Below, piece after piece: positions 1 to 63,229 of a DNA stretch of 64,000 bases. The position numbers were made by a program, and so were the translations under genes. The DNA is from Candidatus Gastranaerophilales bacterium (GTDB lineage: Bacteria; Cyanobacteriota; Vampirovibrionia; Gastranaerophilales; Gastranaerophilaceae). Below the pieces are notes generated by a model. That model saw only the letters and a program-made list of their open reading frames with translations, was not told where the DNA came from and searched no databases. The stretch lies in contig CALUVV010000001.1 in assembly GCA_944324305.1 (NCBI GenBank), positions 124,001 through 188,000 on the forward strand. The letters are read 5' to 3'. Positions within the stretch are counted from its first letter, which is position 1; every line of letters begins with the position of its first letter.

Positions 1-1438
1 ACGCTATCGCCACCGCTTGAATTGGCATTAGATGTATCGTAGGCAGGTATGATTTTACCCGATAAAGTTATGTAGAAGGGATAAACATCACTCCACAATT
101 GAGAATCGCCTTTGGAGCCGTCGATATCTACATAGACTGTGTAGCCGTAGGAATTAGTATTAGGTACACCGTCATATACTCCGCCCTGAGTATTATTAGA
201 TAACATAGAGATGGCACCTGCGTCGTTATGCATATTATAAATTCGCAAACCGTTACGAAGAGTAATATCAGGTGTTTTGCCGGAAAAGTCAGTTGTACCA
301 TCAGATATGACACTGCCGTTACATACATCACTGCCGCTCATGATATTCGCATAACGTTCAAACAATTTGCAGAAATTTTTACCCTTACGGGGTAAAGTAC
401 GGGGAGAAGGAATACATTTACATTGTTCCTCGCTCCATTCATAGGTATCATCACTGCAAGTGCGGTTTATTGCCGGATTTTGTGAAACAATGCCCGTTTC
501 ATCACTACATATATTGCAAGGGGATAAATCCGCTGGACAGTCGGTGACACAATTGCAAGAACTGTTTAAATGCTGCCCCGAAGGACAGGTTTTAGCCGTG
601 CCTGTTAACTTACATGTATGTTCGTCCCATACCTGACCGCAAGGTATTGTACTTGGTTTATTTGTACAGGCGGGACATTCCGACCAGCTATGAGCTTTAT
701 TACCATTCCAACAAGTTACATAACCTGGACAATTTGATTGGCTGACAGCAAAACTGCCATCCCAACAGGTGATTTTGGGCGGGCACGAACTAGGATTGGC
801 TGCTTGAGAACCGTCCCAACAGTCAGCCTTGGGACAAGACGAGGCATTACTTGCTACACTGCCGTCCCAGCAAGTTATTCCTACTTGTTTGCAAGTACAG
901 CTGTCATAATCCAGCCTGTATCCTGAAGAACAAGTCTTAGAGCATTTCAAAGTACAACAAGCAAAACAGCCGCTTCCTTCTTCATGACGATTTGCATCAC
1001 AAAGTCTCCCTCCTGATTCGTTACAAGTAGAACCTACAAGAGAGTGCCAAGGACTGCATCTTGCATAAGCAGGCTGCGACCACATATCTCTATAGAAACC
1101 AAGAATATTATCCTTTAAATTTTGGGCGGTAACAGGCTTTTTTATTCCCGCAATAACATCGTTAGAATTTAAAGCCTGCTTATATTCAGGGTCTTTAGGA
1201 TCCCAGTCTGCAAGCATCTCTGTAGAAATAGAACGTAATGTTGAATAAGCGTTGTAATAAGTGTATGATACTATATTGTCCAGCTTAGCTTTGGTTATAC
1301 CGATTGTTACAGCAACAATAACTGCAATAATTAACATTACTACAATTACTTCCGCTAAAGTATAGCCCGAAAGTCTTGATTTAAGGGCTTTTAGGCTGCC
1401 CCCCCCCCGACAGTATTAAATAAATTACTCTTCTTCAT
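1..1438 (-). CDS. P1: large Cys-rich prepilin-like protein, 3' end outside window, G10 run in leader
   Basis: A class III-like prepilin signal (GYTLAEVIV) is followed by a hydrophobic helix, a Cys-rich core with several CW(D/N)G units (for example TCWDGS) and a C-terminal region containing VDIDGSKGDSQLW. The C-terminus runs off the left edge. The start is ATG at 1438, preceded by an AAGGAG ribosome site and a TTGAAA-N16-TATAAT promoter. From that ATG, ten codons lead into a G10 run and the frame then stops at once (MKKSNLFNTVGGGAA*). The pilin frame opens only if the run is 8 or 11 long. The visible C-terminal half closely resembles P9 at 47035-49280, while the part just after the pilin helix differs. 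Probably an exported filament or surface subunit; function inferred from the signal only. Confidence 0.75.
1399..1408. repeat. C10 homopolymer run in P1 leader
   Basis: Ten C on the + strand (G10 in the coding strand), flanked by G on both sides. It is one base short of the length that would join the P1 start codon to the pilin frame. Confidence 0.95.
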
Positions 1439-6619: not shown

Positions 6620-7308
6620 TTAATATGTCATTTCCCAGTTATCGTTTAAGATTTTTCCGAAACATCCTGCAGTTCCGTTACCGAAACAATCTTCTTCAAA
6701 ACGTGTTTCTCGTTCTTCTGTTGATAATGGCGCGGAAGTCCCCTGGTCATCAATTATTCCGTTATTGTACACAAATACAAAAAAACAATCACGTCCTAAA
6801 ATATTCGGACCTTTTAATCCGTTAACATCTATTGCAAAATAGACATTCAAATCACCGTTATTTGCGCCCTCTGTAAATGTTGTTCTTATAGATGCACCGT
6901 TTGCAAGTACAAATGCTTTATTTTGTCCGAAATTACCGCTTTCCCCATTTAATCTTTTGTACTCATCTGCAAAACATCCTGCCAAAGTGTCACATTCTTT
7001 AATTACTTTAAAATATGATCTTATAAAATCCTCTACGGCTGCTGAAGATGTTAATCCGGCTTCCTTTAAATTAACAGCATTTCTGTCTGTCTGATATTGC
7101 AAAAGAGCCTGCTGCATTTCATTATAAACTTTATGTAATTGGGTTACATAAGTTTTGCGCTGATGATTTTGCATTAAACTCGGAACGGTCATCGCAGATA
7201 CAACGCCGATTATACCTAAAGTGACCAATACCTCTGCAAGTGTAAACGCAGGAGCTGAGCCTAAAGTACGCCCCCCCCCCGCGTGGCAAAACTAAATAAT
7301 TTTTTCAT
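6620..7308 (-). CDS. P2: prepilin-like protein, G10 run in leader, frame closed as sequenced
   Basis: The start is ATG at 7308 with an AAAGGAG site; the leader reads MKKLFSFATRGGGVL* in the zero frame. With one more base in the run it reads through ATRGGGGRTL, then APAFTLAEVLVTLGIIGVVSA, giving 229 residues. The globular part has the family metal-loop-like motif 'DVNGLKGPNILGRDCF' and the shared C-terminal signature 'CFGKILNDNWEMTY'. The gene starts 24 bases after the trmD stop and so probably rides on the rimM-trmD transcript; it ends at a strong hairpin. Likely an exported pilin or pseudopilin; cleavage would fall between Ala and Phe rather than the usual Gly and Phe. Confidence 0.8.
7271..7280. 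repeat. C10 homopolymer run in P2 leader
   Basis: Ten C on the + strand between G bases. The distance from the ATG to the pilin codons leaves remainder 2 modulo 3, so one added base restores the frame. Confidence 0.95.
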
Positions 7309-10197: not shown

Positions 10198-10919
10198 ATG
10201 AGCACACAAAAAGCGTTTGAGATTGCCCCCCCCCCGCAAAGTCAAGTTATAATAAGGGTTTAAAAGGATTTACATTAGCGGAAGTATTAATTACACTGGG
10301 GATTATAGGAATTATTGCCGCTTTATCACTGCCTGTATTAATCCAAAATCATAAAAAAAATGTAGTTGAGACTAAACTAAAAACATTCTACACCATTATG
10401 AACCAGGCTTTACAAAAAAGTGAACTGGAATATGGCGATAAATCATTATGGAATGATGCGGGCGGGCATTTATGTTACGGCTGCGTGAAAGCTGACCCTC
10501 TTTTAACAGATGCACAATTTTTTGATAAATATCTCAGACCGAATTTAACGGTAATTGATTATAAAAGAACAGCACAACCCGGGATTTACGATTTTCCGTT
10601 AGATACTTATACTCTGAAGAACGGTTTGCAATTCGTAGTATATGACAGCGGCGCAAATTATTGGCTGTTTACCGATACAAAAACAGAAAAGGTCAAAGGA
10701 AAAAATGCATTTATGTTTGCATTTATTCCCAGAATTGAAGACGATTACAAATACCTCTGGATATTTCATGAAAATAAAGGAATAGAGCCTTTTGCATACG
10801 GTTTTACAGGTTCTTATGAATATAATATGAGCCTGTGCAAAAAAAATGCTGATAGCTGTACAAAAATTATACAAATAAACAATTGGAAAATTCCGGATGA
10901 TTACCCGATAAAATTCTGA
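10198..10919 (+). CDS. P3: prepilin-like protein, C10 run in leader, frame closed as sequenced
   Basis: The start is ATG at 10198 after AAAAGGAG. The zero frame reads MSTQKAFEIAPPPQSQV and then stops at the TAA of 'GGGTTTAA'. With 8 or 11 C the leader continues through AKSSYNKGLKG into FTLAEVLITLGIIGIIAAL, giving 240 residues at 11. Cleavage would be after Gly with Glu at +5, the classical site. The globular part resembles P11 ('FAFIP', 'YKYLW') and ends with the shared signature 'CTKIIQINNWKIPDDYP'; it lacks the DxNG loop. Here the coding strand carries C (Pro codons), unlike the minus-strand genes, which carry G (Gly codons). Confidence 0.8.
10226..10235. repeat. C10 homopolymer run in P3 leader
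   Basis: Ten C on the + strand, which is also the coding strand here, flanked by G on both sides. One base short of the in-frame length of 11. Confidence 0.95.
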
Positions 10920-14706: not shown

Positions 14707-15464
14707 TTAATAAAGTGCTTCCCAATAACCTTTAGACTTATCATCTGGATTTACATCCTGAATTGCATAATCATAACAGCCTCTGCCGTTATAATTTCCG
14801 TCATCTTTATTTTTTGAGCAAATTTTATTCCAACTGCCGGTTGTATATAAAAATATGTCATAACCATTTCTGTTTGGCCCCTTTTGAGGCCCGTTAGTAT
14901 CAAAAGTCAAAGTAACACCGTCATATTTTCCGTGGTAAAAAAAAGTAAGACTTGATATGACGGTTCCGTCTGATAAGTGATACAATGCAGCATAAGGAGT
15001 ATTAAAATATGTAATGCCGTAAAGATTTCCGTATAATTCTGAAGATTTTCCCGAATAATTCAAAACATATATTTTTTTATTATTCAAACTATACTGATCC
15101 AATTCAGTTATTTTGTTAAAACGTGATAAAAAGAATTCATTTATGTCTTGAAAATAAGATATATTATCAGAGTGACAAGAATATGTTTCTGTTTCCGGCA
15201 GATTACCGCAAATTGAGTTTAAATCTTTAAAGGTCCCGTATCCGAATTCATCAGCGGTAAGATTTAATGCATTTGCGATAATACTGGCGGAACGCTTAAA
15301 AGCTATTTCAAGTTGCTTTACTTTATATTTGTTAATCACATTCGGAAGTGTTAATGCAGATATAACACCGACTATGCCTAATGTTATTAGTACTTCCGCT
15401 AAGGTAAATGCAGGTTTAGGAGCTACAAAATTGCCCCCCCCCCGACATAACTAAATTTTTTCAT
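14707..15464 (-). CDS. P4: prepilin-like protein, G10 run in leader, frame closed as sequenced
   Basis: ATG at 15464 follows AAAGGGG; the zero frame gives MKKFSYVGGGAIL*. With 8 or 11 G it reads through GGNFVAPKPA into FTLAEVLITLGIVGVISAL, giving 252 residues at 11. The mature part has the motif 'DTNGPQKGPNRNGYDIF' and ends 'GYWEALY', a C-terminal type shared loosely with P10 ('QYWDCLP'). Its own promoter is present (15487-15515). It lies tail-to-head after P5 on the same strand. Probably an exported pilin-like subunit. Confidence 0.8.
15434..15443. repeat. C10 homopolymer run in P4 leader
   Basis: Ten C on the + strand flanked by G. One base short of the in-frame length of 11. Confidence 0.95.
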
Positions 15465-16349: not shown

Positions 16350-16359
16350 CCCCCCCCCC
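16350..16359. repeat. C10 homopolymer run in P5 leader
   Basis: Ten C on the + strand flanked by G. One base short of joining the leader ATG to P5. Confidence 0.95.
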
Positions 16360-38102: not shown

Positions 38103-38926
38103 TTAATACATCTTTTTAAAGTAGTCAGGATCACTTAAAGCTTTTGCCGCACAGGCTATACCGTTCAGCCTGTCATTAGAATTTTTTGAACAGTATTTAT
38201 CCGTATCTGTATATGTAGTTCCTTCTGCTCCCATAGGTAATAGCTTTCCTTCAGACGTAATTTCAAATGTAAACAAATCTCTGCCGAAAACATTCGGCTT
38301 CTTGTTCATACCGTTAACGTCTACAGATATAAATAAGCGCGGGACAGATGAACTCGGATTTTCAATCATAATTAATGTTCCGTCTGACAATAAAATTTGA
38401 CCGTCATCAAAAAAATCTGTTTTTACAGTTTGTGAAAGGCTGTACGTTTTATAATTTTTATATGCCTTAACTGCAGAACTTTCGTTATCGCCATCTTCAT
38501 GTTCTCCGGATATTATTCCGCTGTTTGAATCGGTTTTAAGAGCTTTGAAGTATTTGCGATATGTAACGGAAAAAGTTTTAGGAGGGTAATCTTGCGGCAA
38601 AATATCGGTGCCTATATCCGTTTTCATAAATTCAAGCGCCTGAGAAATTTCAGAATACCCCTTATTTAATGCAGATTGTAACTCTCTGTTTTGAGTGCTG
38701 TTAATCAATGAGGGCATTGTCATTGCGGCTGCTATGCCAATAATACCCAGTGTTATCAAAACTTCCGCCAGAGTAAATCCCTTTTGATGGTTAGCTGCTA
38801 AACTTCCTTGCAGCTTACCGCTTAGAGGACGCCCCCCCCCCGAGATGCTACGCAGGTAGACACGTCAACACAAAAGTTGTGAAACTTTTGATGTAATGGC
38901 ATCTGTTTTGTTTCATTTGTTGTCAT
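38103..38926 (-). CDS. P7: prepilin-like protein with long leader, G10 run, frame closed as sequenced
   Basis: ATG at 38926 follows AGAAAGGAG. The 28-codon leader begins MTTNETKQMPLHQKFHNF and resembles P8's. It enters the G10 run and stops (SRGGGVL*). With 8 or 11 G it reads on through RPLSGKLQGSLAANHQKG into FTLAEVLITLGIIGIAAAM, giving 274 residues at 11. The globular part carries 'DVNGMNKKPNVFGRDLFTFE' and ends 'PDYFKKMY'. The leader also encodes a perfect 8-bp hairpin. It is convergent with the efflux operon. Confidence 0.8.
38832..38841. repeat. C10 homopolymer run in P7 leader
   Basis: Ten C on the + strand, flanked by G. One base short of the in-frame length of 11. Confidence 0.95.
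38871..38890 (-). other. P7 leader hairpin
   Basis: CAAAAGTT, loop GTGA, AACTTTTG: a perfect 8-bp stem inside the leader coding region. The P8 copy has the same loop and a compensating base-pair change. Confidence 0.6.
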
Positions 38927-44377: not shown

Positions 44378-45364
44378 TTATAATCCTAAACCTATTCCGC
44401 CGTTTTCTTTTTCACCGTTGTCGCCCGAGCCGATATTTTTAATTACTGTTCTTGTATTGCCGTCAGCATGGAAGTCTTTCGGTTTCATGGTCATTTTAAT
44501 CTTATCAGCATAAATTGTTCTTACACCCTGCGTAATACTCGAACGTCCCGTAAAATAAGCTTCATTCGGCTTACCTTCTTTATTCGGGTATAAAGTAAGT
44601 TTCGGTCCTTCCGCATAATAATCCTGATACCATACACGTACATTACCTGATGCATAGAAGATATTTTTATCCTGAACATATTCCTGACGGTTTGATTTAA
44701 GAACAAGTTTTGTACCGTCCTCCATCATTGCATTTGAGGTAGTATTTCCTGTCGCGGTAAGAACCTTTGTCCCTGCATTATAATAAAATCTGTCCGCGAA
44801 CGAATCGTTGCTTTGTTGTTTAATTCTTGCATTGCCGATAAGCTCAATATCCTTTAAATCACCGTTTTTATCGGTTTTAACTTTTGCTTTATCAGAAAAC
44901 GTTTCCAAATCTTTATATAGTATAGTAACAGCTCCGTCAGCGGTCATAATTCCGGTTTTTGTATCATATTCCTGCTCATCCGCATTTATAACTACAATAG
45001 GAGTTTTGCCGTCAAAAACAATTGATTGTGTGTCTCCCTGAGCTTTGACAACTTTAGTAATTAAAGACATCTTTAAAATATTTGCTTTAACTTCACGTTT
45101 TTTATTCTTTTTAATCTCATAAGCATAAGGTTTGTCGTAGAAAGTTGCCGTATCAAGTTTTTGATTTTCATCCATGCTTACATCTGCAGATTCTCCGACA
45201 ACTTTTAAATCGTCAACAGAAACTTTCACATCTCCTTCAAATTTAAGTCTGTTTTCCTGTTCGTTGTAACTCTGAGTTTTAGATTCAATGACAAGATCAG
45301 AAGCTTGAACAATCAGTCCGGCCGTAAATAAAGTTATTATTAAAGTTAATACTAATTTTTTCAC
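44378..45364 (-). CDS. LptA/OstA-like periplasmic lipopolysaccharide transport protein
   Basis: A 328-residue protein with a signal peptide ('LVLTLIITLFTAGLIVQA'). It has repeated OstA/LptA beta-jellyroll units: 'SYNEQENRLKFEGDVKVSVD', 'YDTKTGIMTADGAVTILY', 'NAGTKVLTATGNTTSNAM' and 'YVQDKNIFYASGNVRVWYQD'. It is longer than E. coli LptA (185) and probably has about two jellyrolls. It is likely to bridge LPS-like lipid from LptC to the outer membrane. Its start overlaps lptC by 4 bases. Confidence 0.85.
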   Translation of the reverse strand: MKKLVLTLIITLFTAGLIVQASDLVIESKTQSYNEQENRLKFEGDVKVSVDDLKVVGESADVSMDENQKLDTATFYDKPYAYEIKKNKKREVKANILKMSLITKVVKAQGDTQSIVFDGKTPIVVINADEQEYDTKTGIMTADGAVTILYKDLETFSDKAKVKTDKNGDLKDIELIGNARIKQQSNDSFADRFYYNAGTKVLTATGNTTSNAMMEDGTKLVLKSNRQEYVQDKNIFYASGNVRVWYQDYYAEGPKLTLYPNKEGKPNEAYFTGRSSITQGVRTIYADKIKMTMKPKDFHADGNTRTVIKNIGSGDNGEKENGGIGLGL

Positions 45365-45963
45365 TTAATCTCCTTATCGCTGTAAACTTTGGAAACAGTG
45401 TTTCCGATAATTTTAAACTTTTCGTAATCAGGGCTTATTTCAACTTTTTTTGCAGTTGATAAAAGGTCGCTTTTTCTTGTAATTCTGACATTGCCTTCTG
45501 CAATAATCGGTATATCTTTTCCTGACCATACAAGCCTGTTAGCCCTGAGCGTAGTTAAATCTTTTAATACAATAAAAGTATCATCATACAATATGATTTG
45601 TTCTTTTTTTTCATTGTAAGTGCCTTTAGAAGACTCAAAGCTCATTGAAACTTCGTTATTGTCATCGTAAAAATTCCCGACAACATTATTAAGCATGGCT
45701 ACGCCGTTTTTACTGTCATAATTACCTGTTTCACCATAAATTTCCCAATATTTTTTTTCATCCTTTGTTTCAGTAAGAATAATACCGTTAATCAAGGCTT
45801 CCTGTCTATCCTGATCAGTTTGAAGCTGGCTTCTGTTAAAGTTATGTGTAATAACTCCGGCAGAAATAAATGCCCAGGCTAAAAGACCGACAATGGCAGC
45901 AAAAGCTCCCGCATAAGCTTTTTGTTTTCTTGTTAAATTCTGTAGTCTGCTCTTAAAGTCCAT
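45361..45963 (-). CDS. lptC: LptC-like LPS export protein
   Basis: A 200-residue protein with an N-terminal membrane helix ('AYAGAFAAIVGLLAWAFISA', residues 17-36) and a beta-jellyroll of the LptC type ('SFESSKGTYNEKKEQIILYD', 'RANRLVWSGKDIPIIAEGNV'). It is the inner-membrane partner passing lipid to the OstA-like protein. It is the first gene of the run lptC-ostA-TPR-dprA-topA-aroE. lptB is not in this window. Confidence 0.85.
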   Translation of the reverse strand: MDFKSRLQNLTRKQKAYAGAFAAIVGLLAWAFISAGVITHNFNRSQLQTDQDRQEALINGIILTETKDEKKYWEIYGETGNYDSKNGVAMLNNVVGNFYDDNNEVSMSFESSKGTYNEKKEQIILYDDTFIVLKDLTTLRANRLVWSGKDIPIIAEGNVRITRKSDLLSTAKKVEISPDYEKFKIIGNTVSKVYSDKEIK

Positions 45964-46020: not shown

Positions 46021-46722
46021 TTACCACGGATAGTCGTCCTTGAACTCCCACCCGTCTTGCATCAGTTTGGCGGTACACAAATGTACTAATTTATGCTTAG
46101 TGCAATCTTCAATCAGATTATAACCTGAAGGGATAATACCGGCTTTATGAAAGTTCTTTATTTGCCCGTCTAAAACATACAAATTTAAGTTTTTCGACGT
46201 AGGACGCATTATTATAAAAAACGTATGAATATCTTTACCTTTTGCATTAGGTTTTTTAAAACCGTTTACATCTACAATTAACCCCGTCAGGTAATACCCG
46301 TCGTCGTCGTCCGAGGAAACTTTTTTAGGGAACACAAGTTCACCACTAGCTAATAAAAAACAACCACTTCTTGCTACATTAAAAGAAGTCATAAGATGCA
46401 ACCCTGTTTCATATCCGTAATCAGTGCAGTTATTGCGTAAAATCTCATCATCTACACTGGAAATTCCTTTTAATTCAGGAAAAATATATTTTTCAAATAC
46501 AGTAGCACTGTAATTATTATTACCTTCCCAATTTGCAGCCTCACCATTGTGAAGTTCTGCTGATATATATGCTTGACTTAACAGAGAATAAAACCTTTTT
46601 GTCTGTACTGCTAAAACTTTTTTTTGATGATTTGCCAAAACAGCGGGCATAGTCAAAGCAGCCACTATACCAATTATACCCAAAGTAATCAAAATTTCTG
46701 ATAAAGTAAATGCTTTTTTCAC
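46021..46722 (-). CDS. P8: prepilin-like protein with internal GTG start and in-frame long leader
   Basis: A 233-residue form from GTG at 46722 (AGGGG site): 'VKKA' then FTLSEILITLGIIGIVAAL. It carries 'DVNGFKKPNAKGKDIHTFFI' and ends 'CTAKLMQDGWEFKDDYPW'. Upstream, a leader with ATG at 46914 runs through an 8-base G run in the same frame with no stop, so a 297-residue form is also open. It is the only run in this window that is in frame, and the only one not 10 long. An internal promoter with palindrome lies between. Confidence 0.85.
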   Translation of the reverse strand: MKKAFTLSEILITLGIIGIVAALTMPAVLANHQKKVLAVQTKRFYSLLSQAYISAELHNGEAANWEGNNNYSATVFEKYIFPELKGISSVDDEILRNNCTDYGYETGLHLMTSFNVARSGCFLLASGELVFPKKVSSDDDDGYYLTGLIVDVNGFKKPNAKGKDIHTFFIIMRPTSKNLNLYVLDGQIKNFHKAGIIPSGYNLIEDCTKHKLVHLCTAKLMQDGWEFKDDYPW

Positions 46723-46743
46723 TAATAATCCCCTGCCATATTT

Positions 46744-46760
46744 GTGAATATATACATCAC
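46744..46760. promoter_or_regulatory. Candidate operator at the P8 internal promoter
   Basis: GTGAATATATACATCAC, one base different from the element at 16271-16287, in the same place relative to the -10 box. Confidence 0.6.
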
Positions 46761-46761
46761 C

Positions 46762-46789
46762 ATTATAACAGAGTTTAGAAATTTTACAA
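46762..46789 (-). promoter_or_regulatory. P8 internal promoter
   Basis: On the minus strand: TTGTAA, 16 bases, TATAAT, followed by the palindrome and then the GTG start. Confidence 0.65.
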
Positions 46790-46822
46790 TACTTATGAAA
46801 TAAAGACAGGAGCCTTAAACTG

Positions 46823-46830
46823 CCCCCCCC
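46823..46830. repeat. C8 homopolymer run in P8 leader
   Basis: Eight C on the + strand flanked by G. The reading frame is open through it. Confidence 0.95.
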
Positions 46831-46858
46831 GAACAATACGCGCGTAGACACATCTGCA

Positions 46859-46878
46859 CAAAAATTGTGAAATTTTTG
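46859..46878 (-). other. P8 leader hairpin
   Basis: CAAAAATT, loop GTGA, AATTTTTG. It has the same loop as the P7 hairpin, with one base pair changed on both sides (G-C to A-T). Confidence 0.6.
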
Positions 46879-46933
46879 CCTTAATGGCATCTTTTTTGTT
46901 TCTTTAGTTTTCATATTTGCTCCTTTCTGTTTT

Positions 46934-46962
46934 ACTATAACAAATATTTTGACCATTGTAAA
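46934..46962 (-). promoter_or_regulatory. P8 leader promoter
   Basis: On the minus strand: TTTACA, 17 bases, TATAGT, upstream of the leader ATG. Confidence 0.5.
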
Positions 46963-46970
46963 GGAAAAGA

Positions 46971-46988
46971 CGCCGAATAACTTCGGCG
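46971..46988 (-). terminator. Terminator of P9
   Basis: CGCCGAA stem with a four-base loop, followed on the minus strand by CTTTTCC. Confidence 0.65.
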
Positions 46989-47034
46989 CTGCATCTAACT
47001 CATTAATTTATTGTGATACTATTGAACAATGGAG

Positions 47035-49280
47035 TTAGAAGAAAAATTTCATAGGCTGTATCTGCTTGACACGGCACATGGAATTATAATTTGTGGTACA
47101 TTCATCTGCCTTAGTAAATGGAGTGCCATTTTTGCAATAAGGAGTTGCGTCACCGACATAACCTGCGATACAAGCGCCTTCTTTAAATGGGACACTTTTT
47201 GCAAGCCATTTGATACTGCGTTTCCCGCTTGCATAATTCTCATTCTCGACACTTACCTGTAAGTGACGTACACTATCGCCGCCGCTTTGTTCAGGGTTAG
47301 ATGTGTCATATGCAGGTATAATTTTACCAGATAACGTGATGTAGAAGGGATAAACATCGCTCCATAATTGAGAATCGCCTTTTGACCCGTCAATATCTAC
47401 ATAGACTGTATAGCCGTAAGAATTGGTATTTGGGACACCGTCATAAACGCCGCCTTGAGTATTATTGGCTAACATAGAGATAGCACCTGCATCGCTATGC
47501 ATATTATAAATACGCAAGCCGTTTCGTAATGTGATATCTGGAGACTTATTTGAAAAGTCAGTTGTACCATTGGAGATTACACTCCCGTTGCAGACATCGC
47601 TGCCACTCATGATATTGGCATGACGTTCAAATAATTTACAGAAATTCATACCCTTGCGGGGTAAAGTTCTAGGAGAAGGGATACACTTACATTGTTCCTC
47701 ACTCCATTCATAGGTCTCATCGCTGCAAGTGCGGTTGATTGCCGGATTTTGAGAAACCACACCTGTTTCATTACTGCAGATATTACACGGTGATATATCA
47801 GTCGGACAATCATTAACACATCCGCATGAACTGTTTAAATGCTGACCCGAAGGACAAGTTTTAGCGCTGCCTGTACAAGTTTTGTCATCCCAGCTCGCAG
47901 GACAAGCCGGTTTATTGGGACAAGAGGGACATTCCGACCAATTATGCGCTTTATTGCCGTTCCAACAGGTAACATAACCCGGACAGGAAGAGGTACTGTC
48001 GGCCTTTGAACCGTCCCAGCAAGTTACTTGTTTTTTTATACATTCACAACTGCTTGTGTTTAACTCGTAACCTTCCGAACAGCTCTTTGTACAAGCCGGA
48101 CACTCAGATTGACTGTGGACGACACTGCCGTCCCAGCATGTTACTTTATCAGGACAATTCCAATAATATTCTGTGCGTGTGCCGTCCCAACAATCTGTAT
48201 AACACGTACAAGTATTAGGATCTAATTTTTGCTCTGATATATAACATTTTTTGGTACATGTGTTTCCACCGCTGTTTCCGCCGCTTGAACCTCCCGAACT
48301 TCCGCCGCTGCTGCCGCCAGAATTACCTCCGCTGCTGCCGCCTTCCGTGGCAATCTTATGGCAAACTCCTGCCGGCAATCCATAGTCACTGTCATATGCC
48401 AGCCACTCATAACCATCCTGACATTCAATAACATTCTTGCACATATTACCTTCTATCAAAGTGGAACTTATTATATTAGCATGCTGAACAGTTGTATTTT
48501 TAGGCATAAAATCATAAAGTATTTCATTACCGTTACAGGTAGCATCAAATATACCCGTAAACGGTCCGCAGCACTTCCCGCCTTTGCAGCCGGATGAGTT
48601 GCGTTCCATTGTTGTACAATCATACACACAACCAATACTTACACTGAATGCCGCATAGGTAGTATGCCCTTTGTATGTACCAGGACATTTATCATAGCCG
48701 GTATGAATATCTGCAATAATGTCACTACAGGTTTTAGTTTTCGGGTCATACGAAAAATTCGCATTCTTTTCAAACCTGCTTGATGATATTTGTGCATCAA
48801 TATATTTTCCTCCAGAAGCACACCCGTAAACAGTTAGTCTGTCTCCCGCTTTAGCTCTATTAGGCTGAAACCGAAGAGCAAGCGGTGTATGAGATAAAAT
48901 TATTGAAAAAAATCTATAATCATTAGGCGCATTAAATGCAAATAAATTTTTATTATTTAATGCCTGCTTATACTCAGGATCTTGAGGGTCCCAATCGGCT
49001 AGCATTTCGGTCGATATCTTTCGTAAAGTGGAATAAGCATTGTAATAGGTATAAGATACAATGTTATCTAACTTCGCCTTGGTTATACCGATTGTTACAG
49101 CAACAATAACTGCAATAATTAACATTACCACAATTACTTCTGCTAAAGTATACCCCAAGAACCCCGGTGTCGGAGCTTTTAGGTCGCCCCCCCCCCGACA
49201 CTGCGTGCGTAGACACCACTAAACAAGCTTTGAAAAACTTGATTGAACATGGCATCTGTTTTTTTTGCCAATCTTTTCAT
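47035..49280 (-). CDS. P9: large Cys-rich prepilin-like protein, G10 run in leader, frame closed as sequenced
   Basis: ATG at 49280 (AAGGAG) starts a 28-codon leader (MKRLAKKTDAMFNQVFQS...) that enters the G10 run and stops (SVGGGAT*). With 8 or 11 G it continues through LKAPTPGFLG into YTLAEVIVVMLIIAVIVAV, giving 748 residues at 11. After the pilin helix come a variable Cys-containing region, a Gly/Ser linker (about residue 310 of the full form), four CW(D/N)G units with paired Cys ('TCWDGSVVHSQSECPAC'), and a C-terminal domain with 'VDIDGSKGDSQLW'. It looks like a pilin-anchored surface adhesin. Close paralogue of P1. Confidence 0.82.
49187..49196. repeat. C10 homopolymer run in P9 leader
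   Basis: Ten C on the + strand flanked by G. The ATG at 49280 and the pilin codons differ by one base in register. Confidence 0.95.
49224..49241 (-). other. P9 leader hairpin, imperfect
   Basis: CAAGCTTT pairs with AAAACTTG with one wobble pair, at the place of the P7 and P8 hairpins. Confidence 0.4.
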
Positions 49281-56368: not shown

Positions 56369-57111
56369 ATGTTGTTTAAAGAAGCTTTAAAAGTGCCCCC
56401 CCCCCGCGAAACACAGACGGCTCAAGGGCGTTCACTTTAGCGGAAGTTTTGGTCACTCTTGGGATTATAGGAGTTGTTGCGGCTATGACAATGCCGTCAC
56501 TGATAAATAATCAGCGGAAAGCGGTATTATCTTCTCAGTTTAAAAAGCAATATAATGTATTGTCACAGGCACTTGATTTGTGGAAGCAGGAAACAGGCGT
56601 TATCGGGCTTTACAAAATGTACGCAACTTATAACGGTACCGAATACGTAAATTCTGAAAGTTTTATAACACAGTACATGGAAAAGCTTAAAACTGTCGGT
56701 ACAATGGAGTACAAAAAAGGTCCGTATAACTTAAATAAAACAAAAAATATGAATGTCGAAGGTAGAACATGTACCCCGAATACACTGCTCCCTGACGGTT
56801 CTTCAATGTGCGTCAGAATTTGGTCAAGCATGATTACGATTACAACCGATATTAACGGTCCCAATAAAAATCCTAATGCTTGGGGATATGACATTTTTAC
56901 TTTTGTTATAGATGAATCCACGGAACAGTTACGGGGAATGAAACCCACAAAAGCAGCACCCGACCCTAATGCAGAATATCCGGAAGGAGACGGGCTACCT
57001 TGTTCATTTAAAATTCAAAGTGCAGGTAACGGCCTGGGATGTGCGTACTACGCTGTTACAAACACTTGTCCTGATGATGAAAAAAAACAATATTGGGATT
57101 GCCTGCCCTAA
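56369..57111 (+). CDS. P10: prepilin-like protein, C10 run in leader, frame closed as sequenced
   Basis: A perfect promoter and AAAAGGAGG ribosome site lead to ATG at 56369. The zero frame reads MLFKEALKVPPPRETQTAQG and soon stops. With 8 or 11 C it reads PPRNTDGSRA into FTLAEVLVTLGIIGVVAAM, giving 247 residues at 11. It carries 'DINGPNKNPNAWGYDIFTFV' and ends 'YWDCLP'. The leader is nearly the same as P11's. Such strong expression signals in front of a closed frame argue against simple decay. Confidence 0.82.
56396..56405. repeat. C10 homopolymer run in P10 leader
   Basis: Ten C on the + strand, which is the coding strand, flanked by G. One base short of the in-frame length of 11. Confidence 0.95.
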
Positions 57112-62501: not shown

Positions 62502-63229
62502 ATGTTTATTAGAGAAGCTTTAAGACTGCCCCCCCCCCGCAAAACACAGACGTCTCAAGGGCGTTCACTTTAGCGGAAGTTCTGGTTACTCTGGGGATTA
62601 TAGGAGTTGTTGCAGCATTAACACTGCCGAATTTAATTGCCGATTACAGAAATAATGTTGTTGAAACCAGACTTAAAAAATTTTATTCGCTTATGAATCA
62701 GGCAATTTTACAATCTATTGTTGATAACGGAGAAGTGGAAAGCTGGAGTTATTTTAATGATGATATGACAGATGAAGACGGCGATAAAGTTAATCAGGCT
62801 GATAAAAACGATGCATCGTTTCAACGCTATCTTGCGCCGTATCTGAAAGTTATTGACAAAAAAGAAGCAAAAGACGCTAACGGTAAAAAAATCTTTATTT
62901 ATTTCTTATCGGACGGAAGCGCATTTTCTTTTGCCCAGCATGAAAATCGGGACATACTGTTTTACCCTAAAAATCCTGAAAAATGTCTAAAAAAACAAGA
63001 TTACGCAGGAAGCTGCGCTTTTGCATTTGAGTTTTATCCGATAAGTAATTCTAAAGATTGGAAATATTTATACGGCAAGGGAATGGAGCCTGCTCTTTAT
63101 CAATGGGACGGAGATGAAAAAACTCTTTATAATAAATGTAAATCCGGAAGCGGAGGATATTGTACCGCGATTATACAAAGAAACGGCTGGAAAGTCCCGA
63201 AAGATTACCCCGGAAGAATAAGCTTTTAA
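62502..63229 (+). CDS. P11: prepilin-like protein, C10 run in leader, frame closed as sequenced
   Basis: ATG at 62502 follows AAAAGGAGG. The zero frame reads MFIREALRLPPPRKTQTSQG and soon stops. With 8 or 11 C it reads PPQNTDVSRA into FTLAEVLVTLGIIGVVAAL, giving 242 residues at 11. The globular part resembles P3 ('CAFAFEFYPISN') and ends 'CTAIIQRNGWKVPKDYPGR'. An ATG eight bases earlier is out of frame and stops at once, so it is not the start. The leader is nearly the same as P10's, while the bodies differ. Confidence 0.82.
62529..62538. repeat. C10 homopolymer run in P11 leader
   Basis: Ten C on the + strand, which is the coding strand, flanked by G. One base short of the in-frame length of 11. 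Confidence 0.95.

Follow-up and report, generated by a model that had tools for sequence, protein, structure and literature searches.

An eight-base G run places leader and pilin in one frame at the P8 locus of a Gastranaerophilales genome with a large, strand-fixed G10 repertoire

Does a run of eight G between a short leader and a pilin gene mark that pilin, here called P8, as a copy that is switched on? The question arises from the window, i.e., the whole 64-kb stretch of DNA that was analysed, which holds ten G/C runs of at least seven bases, nine of them 10 long and that of P8 8 long. Chance was rejected as their origin, the window having 28 overlapping G8 matches against 0.27 expected per shuffled window. 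The sequence confirms the original prediction that the frame of ATG 46914 continues through G8 into the pilin for 297 residues with no stop, and this fused frame contains the peptide VLFGGGSLRLL. That P8 has the only run not 10 long is true of the window; the 735 kb read from the genome contain six G11 runs as well. The locus is laid out as follows.

46970 to 46989, minus strand: terminator-like hairpin before the P8 unit (pattern match)
46934 to 46962, minus strand: promoter-like TTTACA-17-TATAGT before the leader (pattern match only)
46920 to 46926, minus strand: Shine-Dalgarno-like AAAGGAG before the leader (read in the sequence)
46831 to 46914, minus strand: P8 leader of 84 nt, start ATG 46914 (read in the sequence)
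46830 to 46823, minus strand: G8 run, length 8, C on both sides
46723 to 46822, minus strand: spacer of 100 nt from run to GTG, open in the pilin frame only
46762 to 46789, minus strand: internal promoter-like TTGTAA-16-TATAAT in the spacer (pattern match), common to the pilin subclass of P8
46744 to 46760, minus strand: palindrome-like GTGATGTATATATTCAC 3' of the internal -10 (read in the sequence), a possible operator candidate
46021 to 46722, minus strand: P8 prepilin from GTG 46722 (MKKAFTLSEILITLG), 233 aa, TIGR02532
46021 to 46914, minus strand: fused leader-GGG-pilin frame, 297 aa, open through to the stop ending at 46021
44378 to 45963: lptC together with an LptA-like gene, immediately downstream of P8

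The promoter-like pattern was found 4 times against 1.9 expected and the terminator-like pattern 2 times against 0.2 expected in shuffles; a search for Rfam elements in the 64-kb window gave 0 matches at the gathering threshold. The N-terminus of the P8 prepilin passes the TIGR02532 cut-off (23.2 bits, cut-off 16.3) and falls just below that of Pfam N_methyl (20.3 bits, cut-off 21.2), and past the N-terminus Pfam gave DUF6613 only below its cut-off. The predicted structure, a low-confidence model (mean pLDDT 61.5), has a long N-terminal helix at 71-123, and a PDB fold search with this model gave no match at E 0.001. Of the downstream genes, lptC begins 57 nt from the pilin and scores above its cut-off, while the LptA-like gene is just below its own (71.5 bits, cut-off 71.7). 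In two relatives from the genus (L154 and L156), the place of P8 beside lptC and the LptA-like gene is taken by a different pilin with a G10 run.

The other nine runs of the window are all G10 on the same strand.

1399 to 1408, minus strand: G10 run before a GYTLAE-type protein
7271 to 7280, minus strand: G10 run in the leader of a further pilin, off frame by one base
10226 to 10235, minus strand: G10 run, equal to C10 for a plus-strand pilin gene
15434 to 15443, minus strand: G10 run in the leader of a further pilin, off frame by one base
16350 to 16359, minus strand: G10 run of a pilin of the internal-promoter subclass of P8
38832 to 38841, minus strand: G10 run with the leader module type of P8
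49187 to 49196, minus strand: G10 run before a 707-aa Cys-rich GYTLAE protein
56396 to 56405, minus strand: G10 run, equal to C10 for a plus-strand pilin gene
62529 to 62538, minus strand: G10 run, equal to C10 for a plus-strand pilin gene

The 707-aa protein (47035-49158) has a prepilin-like start, GYTLAE, and Gly-Ser repeats, and its relatives lie at other loci.

The source genome comprises 2.2 Mb in 16 contigs, from which 80 stretches (735 kb), picked around pilin matches and G runs, were read. They contain 163 pilin-like N-termini, 125 of which have a run of at least 8 within 260 nt upstream, and 150 G/C runs of at least seven, i.e., 143 G10, six G11 and the single G8 of P8. The whole genome has 164 C-G10-CV sites, about 14 of which fall outside the stretches read. 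The frame rule, observed across the repertoire, was assessed on the 117 of the 150 runs with an accepted pilin motif and an upstream ATG, the 33 without the motif being left out: all 112 ten-base runs miss the frame by one base, always the same one, and all five runs of other lengths (four G11 and P8) are in frame. In a wider set of 131 runs with an SD-ATG leader, 121 of 124 G10 runs give the longest frame with one base more. The predicted rule that 8 or 11 bases join leader and pilin is thus strongly upheld within the motif set, with two pilin-type breaks outside it, at C6:9369 (10, in frame) and C6:150286 (G11, out of frame), both with altered bases after the run. Where CAG:439, the nearest genome, has both a leader and a pilin at a run, 46 of 51 join at 8/11. 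In other genomes the rule holds at 16/17 (G10) and 6/6 (G9) of the loci taken one per genome and at 14/16 of a set fetched for G11 (13/15 G11 and one G10), all these checks, those in CAG:439 included, covering only runs with leader and pilin and using script-assigned starts, which may be wrong. At G000:C13:25429 (L118) an interrupted run, CGTGGGAGGGGC, precedes an in-frame pilin, perhaps a locked-ON copy.

We regard P8, with confidence somewhat better than even, as an apparent ON copy in a large default-OFF, phase-variable pilin repertoire switched by run length. An SD-ATG leader would be joined to the pilin via a G (or C) run; with length 10 the pilin lies out of frame by a single base, lengths 8 and 11 bring the two together, and the G8 of P8 would be a recent length change that set leader and pilin in one frame. 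It is because G8 brings the two into one frame that the allele appears ON. The P8 pilin could possibly also be made from the internal GTG, whatever the run length.

A change of length is directly observed. The P8 locus of CAG:439 (FR900465.1, whose label "Fusobacterium sp." is probably a misnomer) has G10 in place of the G8 found here, within 250-nt flanks that are 99.2 and 99.6% identical. With G10 at the same locus of this relative, the predicted ON allele is a fair reading, in which the translation of the leader, the slippage origin of G8 and the reversibility of the change are the steps that we infer. In 44 same-locus pairs between the two genomes, counted from both-side matches only (36 of the 80 CAG:439 runs, lacking a two-side match, are left out), 31 are 10/10 and 13 differ. 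The four G11 runs here with a match are 10 in CAG:439, and where G10 runs here differ, CAG:439 has 11 at four, 9 at three and 8 at one. Several CAG:439 runs have left and right sides that match different loci of this genome, as if leaders and pilin bodies had been swapped at or near the run; the pilin N-termini are too alike for the exchange breakpoint to be placed.

Since the lengths are consensus values from draft assemblies, a sequencing or assembly artefact might in principle set all runs to 10. We give this hardly any credence: ten is the modal length in the majority of the 33 separate genomes, G002 and G034 nevertheless having lengths of 8-16 and 9-12, and an artefact would not orient runs by chromosome arm. 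On the arm orientation and the G002 and G034 lengths, it was ruled out as the main cause.

Whether the leader is translated bears directly on what G8 does. The original prediction that P8 demonstrates translation through a Gly run overreached, as an open frame is not translation and P8 also possesses a promoter-like site of its own within the spacer, together with a possible SD (AGGGG) and GTG 46722. Two observations favour leader translation: long spacers stay open in the pilin frame only (see below), and the 28-nt leaders change most at the third codon position (410/2934, 596/2608 and 1020/2608 for the three positions), whereas the 84-nt leaders of the P8 type show no codon-position signal (141, 141 and 143 of 594 each). 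The 84/85-nt leader module is common to 19 runs including P8 and is used in two reading frames, the 85-nt leaders reading the same DNA in another frame than the 84-nt type; with no codon signal and two frames in use, it therefore seems that in this type the frame is kept rather than the peptide. Small inverted repeats, CACAA..TTGTG and CTACGCACGTAG, lie within the module (e.g., window 46914-46831 and 38842-38926), and a stretch similar to the module occurs antisense in some C-sense pilin genes.

Because P8 and its subclass have a TATAAT-type site and a start of their own, the pilin may arise without the leader, and the run could then be irrelevant to P8, the pilin being made from the internal promoter and GTG 46722 and G8 being a neutral deletion. 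The promoter-like TTGTAA-16-TATAAT of P8 with its possible SD and GTG start would suit this, as would the similar promoter-like sites of other subclass members, most of which have an ATG start. We nevertheless find it rather unlikely. The 112 nt from the P8 run to FTLSE hold 5, 0 and 3 stops in the three frames, with 0 in the pilin frame, and all 18 of 18 spacers of at least 80 nt are open in that frame only, the chance by shuffling of its being open lying at 0.012-0.098 for each. Moreover, the lone P8 value other than 10 is an in-frame one, as are 4/4 G11 pilins, although a single neutral event would be expected to give an in-frame length in only one case out of two or three. The subclass itself (window 46822-46723, 16349-16235 and others) carries TTGTAA..TATAAT plus a GTGA..TCAC palindrome in the stretch that separates run and pilin, which from the sequence may be a repressor-controlled promoter.

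The constant offset admits another reading of the G10 copies. A run of ten can act as a slippery site, and programmed -1 ribosomal frameshifting (or RNA polymerase slippage) at G10/C10 could yield every pilin at a low level, with P8 as a constitutive mutant. The identical -1 offset in 112/112 runs, alike in G and C sense, and the fixed length are as expected of programmed frameshifting; conservation according to the need for a shift is not what we see. Of 26 runs examined beyond the main pilin set, 15 or more join at 7/10, among them those of a glycosyltransferase and a metalloprotease-like gene. Length 10 is thus in frame in these ordinary genes and out of frame in pilins; the ordinary genes need no shift and the length is still 10. 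Length 9 is as frequent as 11, 13 of the 44 orthologous pairs differ in length, and strand polarity is not implied by frameshifting, which we hold to be improbable.

Run-length switching leaves part of the pattern unaccounted for. Against plain slippage, 95% of the runs are exactly 10, a narrower spread than at usual slippage loci, and the OFF state alone does not select 10, because length 9, likewise OFF, is found about as seldom as 11. All 150 of 150 G runs lie on one strand per chromosome arm regardless of gene direction, with a single side change, in contig C3, and the sign of the GC skew agrees with the G-run strand in 11/11 contigs of single polarity. In three well-assembled relatives, 138 sites form long blocks, and each large contig changes side once. 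The GC skew and the block structure point to a link between the G runs and replication, which we propose although dnaA does not lie at the side change; as a mark of the switch point, dnaA was dropped, being near none in G007, G026 or G019. The flanks are likewise fixed: C precedes each run, and C plus A or G follows. The 33 runs that lack the motif show the same flanks, and some of these runs belong to divergent pilin-type genes. A fixed run length combined with perfect chromosomal orientation is unusual, and simple slippage does not explain the strand, length and flanks of the runs. A G10 that is default OFF and an exact 10 on one strand thus need a second cause.

The ordinary genes show how the runs replace native sequence. 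Across the run, ten glycosyltransferase loci can be aligned gap-free: four have G10, one has nine of the ten G and five have native sequence; the bases replaced by G are mostly A or C, not only T. In 30 loci of the metalloprotease-like gene, two have G10 and 28 native sequence in the same columns. An inserted mobile element was discarded as the source of G10, the orthologs being gap-free at both sites checked. As a pattern, length 10 and strand are set at the DNA level, apart from gene and frame, a layer that the original prediction missed.

One candidate mechanism is a mutation bias. The leading strand is where GnT hotspots operate, T behind a G tract being changed to G (PMC12344412), and such a bias could make and orient the runs, with 10 as a balance of growth and contraction. 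In its favour we count substitution without indels at the two sites and the C, not T, that follows the runs. The glycosyltransferase, where mostly A or C was replaced, speaks against it. The intermediates that the bias would predict are almost absent: G5 runs have no strand bias (62 vs 68), G6 runs number 2/1 by strand, G7 none, G8 one and G9 none, and C-N10-CR sites with seven, eight or nine G are rare (8/7, 1/1 and 1/0) against 139/0 with ten. Neither the sharp 10 nor the C before the run would follow from it, and we accord it little chance. A selected motif, or a run templated on the exposed lagging-strand template, would fit better.

We hypothesize, tentatively and as a possibility that we doubt more than we trust, that the clade actively writes and repairs a fixed C-G10-CR at some 165 sites per genome, on the leading strand only (lagging-strand template). 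At the fork, ssDNA templating or gene conversion could do this; alternatively, selection could act on a motif that a replication-linked protein reads. The pilins would be framed such that the restored length is OFF, and P8 would have escaped to 8; the whole might act as a genome-wide default-OFF reset derived from slippage tracts like those of G002.

Several known systems share parts of this pattern. Poly-G contingency loci of Campylobacter, Neisseria and Helicobacter likewise have a G run in the 5' coding region, a frame set by length modulo 3, lengths that differ between close relatives and many surface genes. P8 resembles a slippage locus in its 5' homopolymer in a surface gene, its length difference between relatives and its frame set by length; the repertoire departs from one in its narrow length spread, with 143/150 at 10, in its strand, which follows the chromosome arm and not the gene, in the fixed C and CR flanks and in runs that are also in frame in ordinary genes. 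Antigenic variation at Neisseria pilE/pilS involves a large repertoire of pilins, of which few are presumed to be active; in contrast, the copies described here have their own SD, start and leader, and the candidate switch is run length, not gene conversion alone. Chi and KOPS are G-rich chromosome motifs oriented with replication, and orientation by chromosome arm is found here too, with about 165 copies mostly in pilin leaders and without exception in the runs read; the likeness is one of sequence pattern. For comparison, the C. jejuni colony peaks in PMC4965091 are G8 257, G9 214, G10 431, G11 77 and G12 9, i.e., 431/988 at G10, a far broader distribution than here. The reversible homopolymeric 5' off-switches of PMC2831843 share the 5' position and the frameshift logic; in the parts of that paper available to us they are mainly poly(A)/poly(T), and a strand rule or fixed length was not seen there. 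The GnT hotspots of PMC12344412 share G tracts, the leading strand and substitution with our runs, and differ in that the accessible part gives no fixed length and in that the predicted intermediates are absent here. In the open-access literature, a search for phase variation or pilins in Melainabacteria and Gastranaerophilales found none on G runs, and one for poly-G tracts, strand and phase variation jointly found none on such runs. For a termite-gut relative, pilA and pilus genes are mentioned in the part seen of PMC5877343, and nothing on G runs was found in it.

If the preferred reading of P8 as an ON copy is true, a common gut lineage, uncultured or else little studied, has a pilin repertoire that ranks among the largest to share an off-setting, and a single genome read would tell the likely ON pilin copies. 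The strand rule, the sharp length and the missing intermediates point to a process at the fork beyond ordinary slippage.

The distribution of CG10CR is confined to the genus in our sample, with at least one site in 27 of 33 genus genomes in the per-genome table (the overall tally being 29/58 with a match) and 0/25 genomes outside it. Genus run lengths of 10, 9 and 11 number 1402, 69 and 84. In the selected stretches, G002, which belongs to the genus but is divergent, shows 28 runs with lengths of 8-16, and both orientations occur on one of its contigs; G034, from another genus, has 9 runs of 9-12 in the stretches selected from it. As G002 has ordinary tracts within the same genus, it opens the fork process to genetics by comparison. 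Another Gastranaerophilales genome (L150, CALUPW010000003.1) has G15 and G11 at positions resembling those of leader runs, and a pilin follows the G15. At G000:C2:316166 (L071), and similarly at L123, L137 and L148, a G10 kept in several genomes lies between a gene ending in SDDVDDLF and a putatively MotB/ZorB-like gene.
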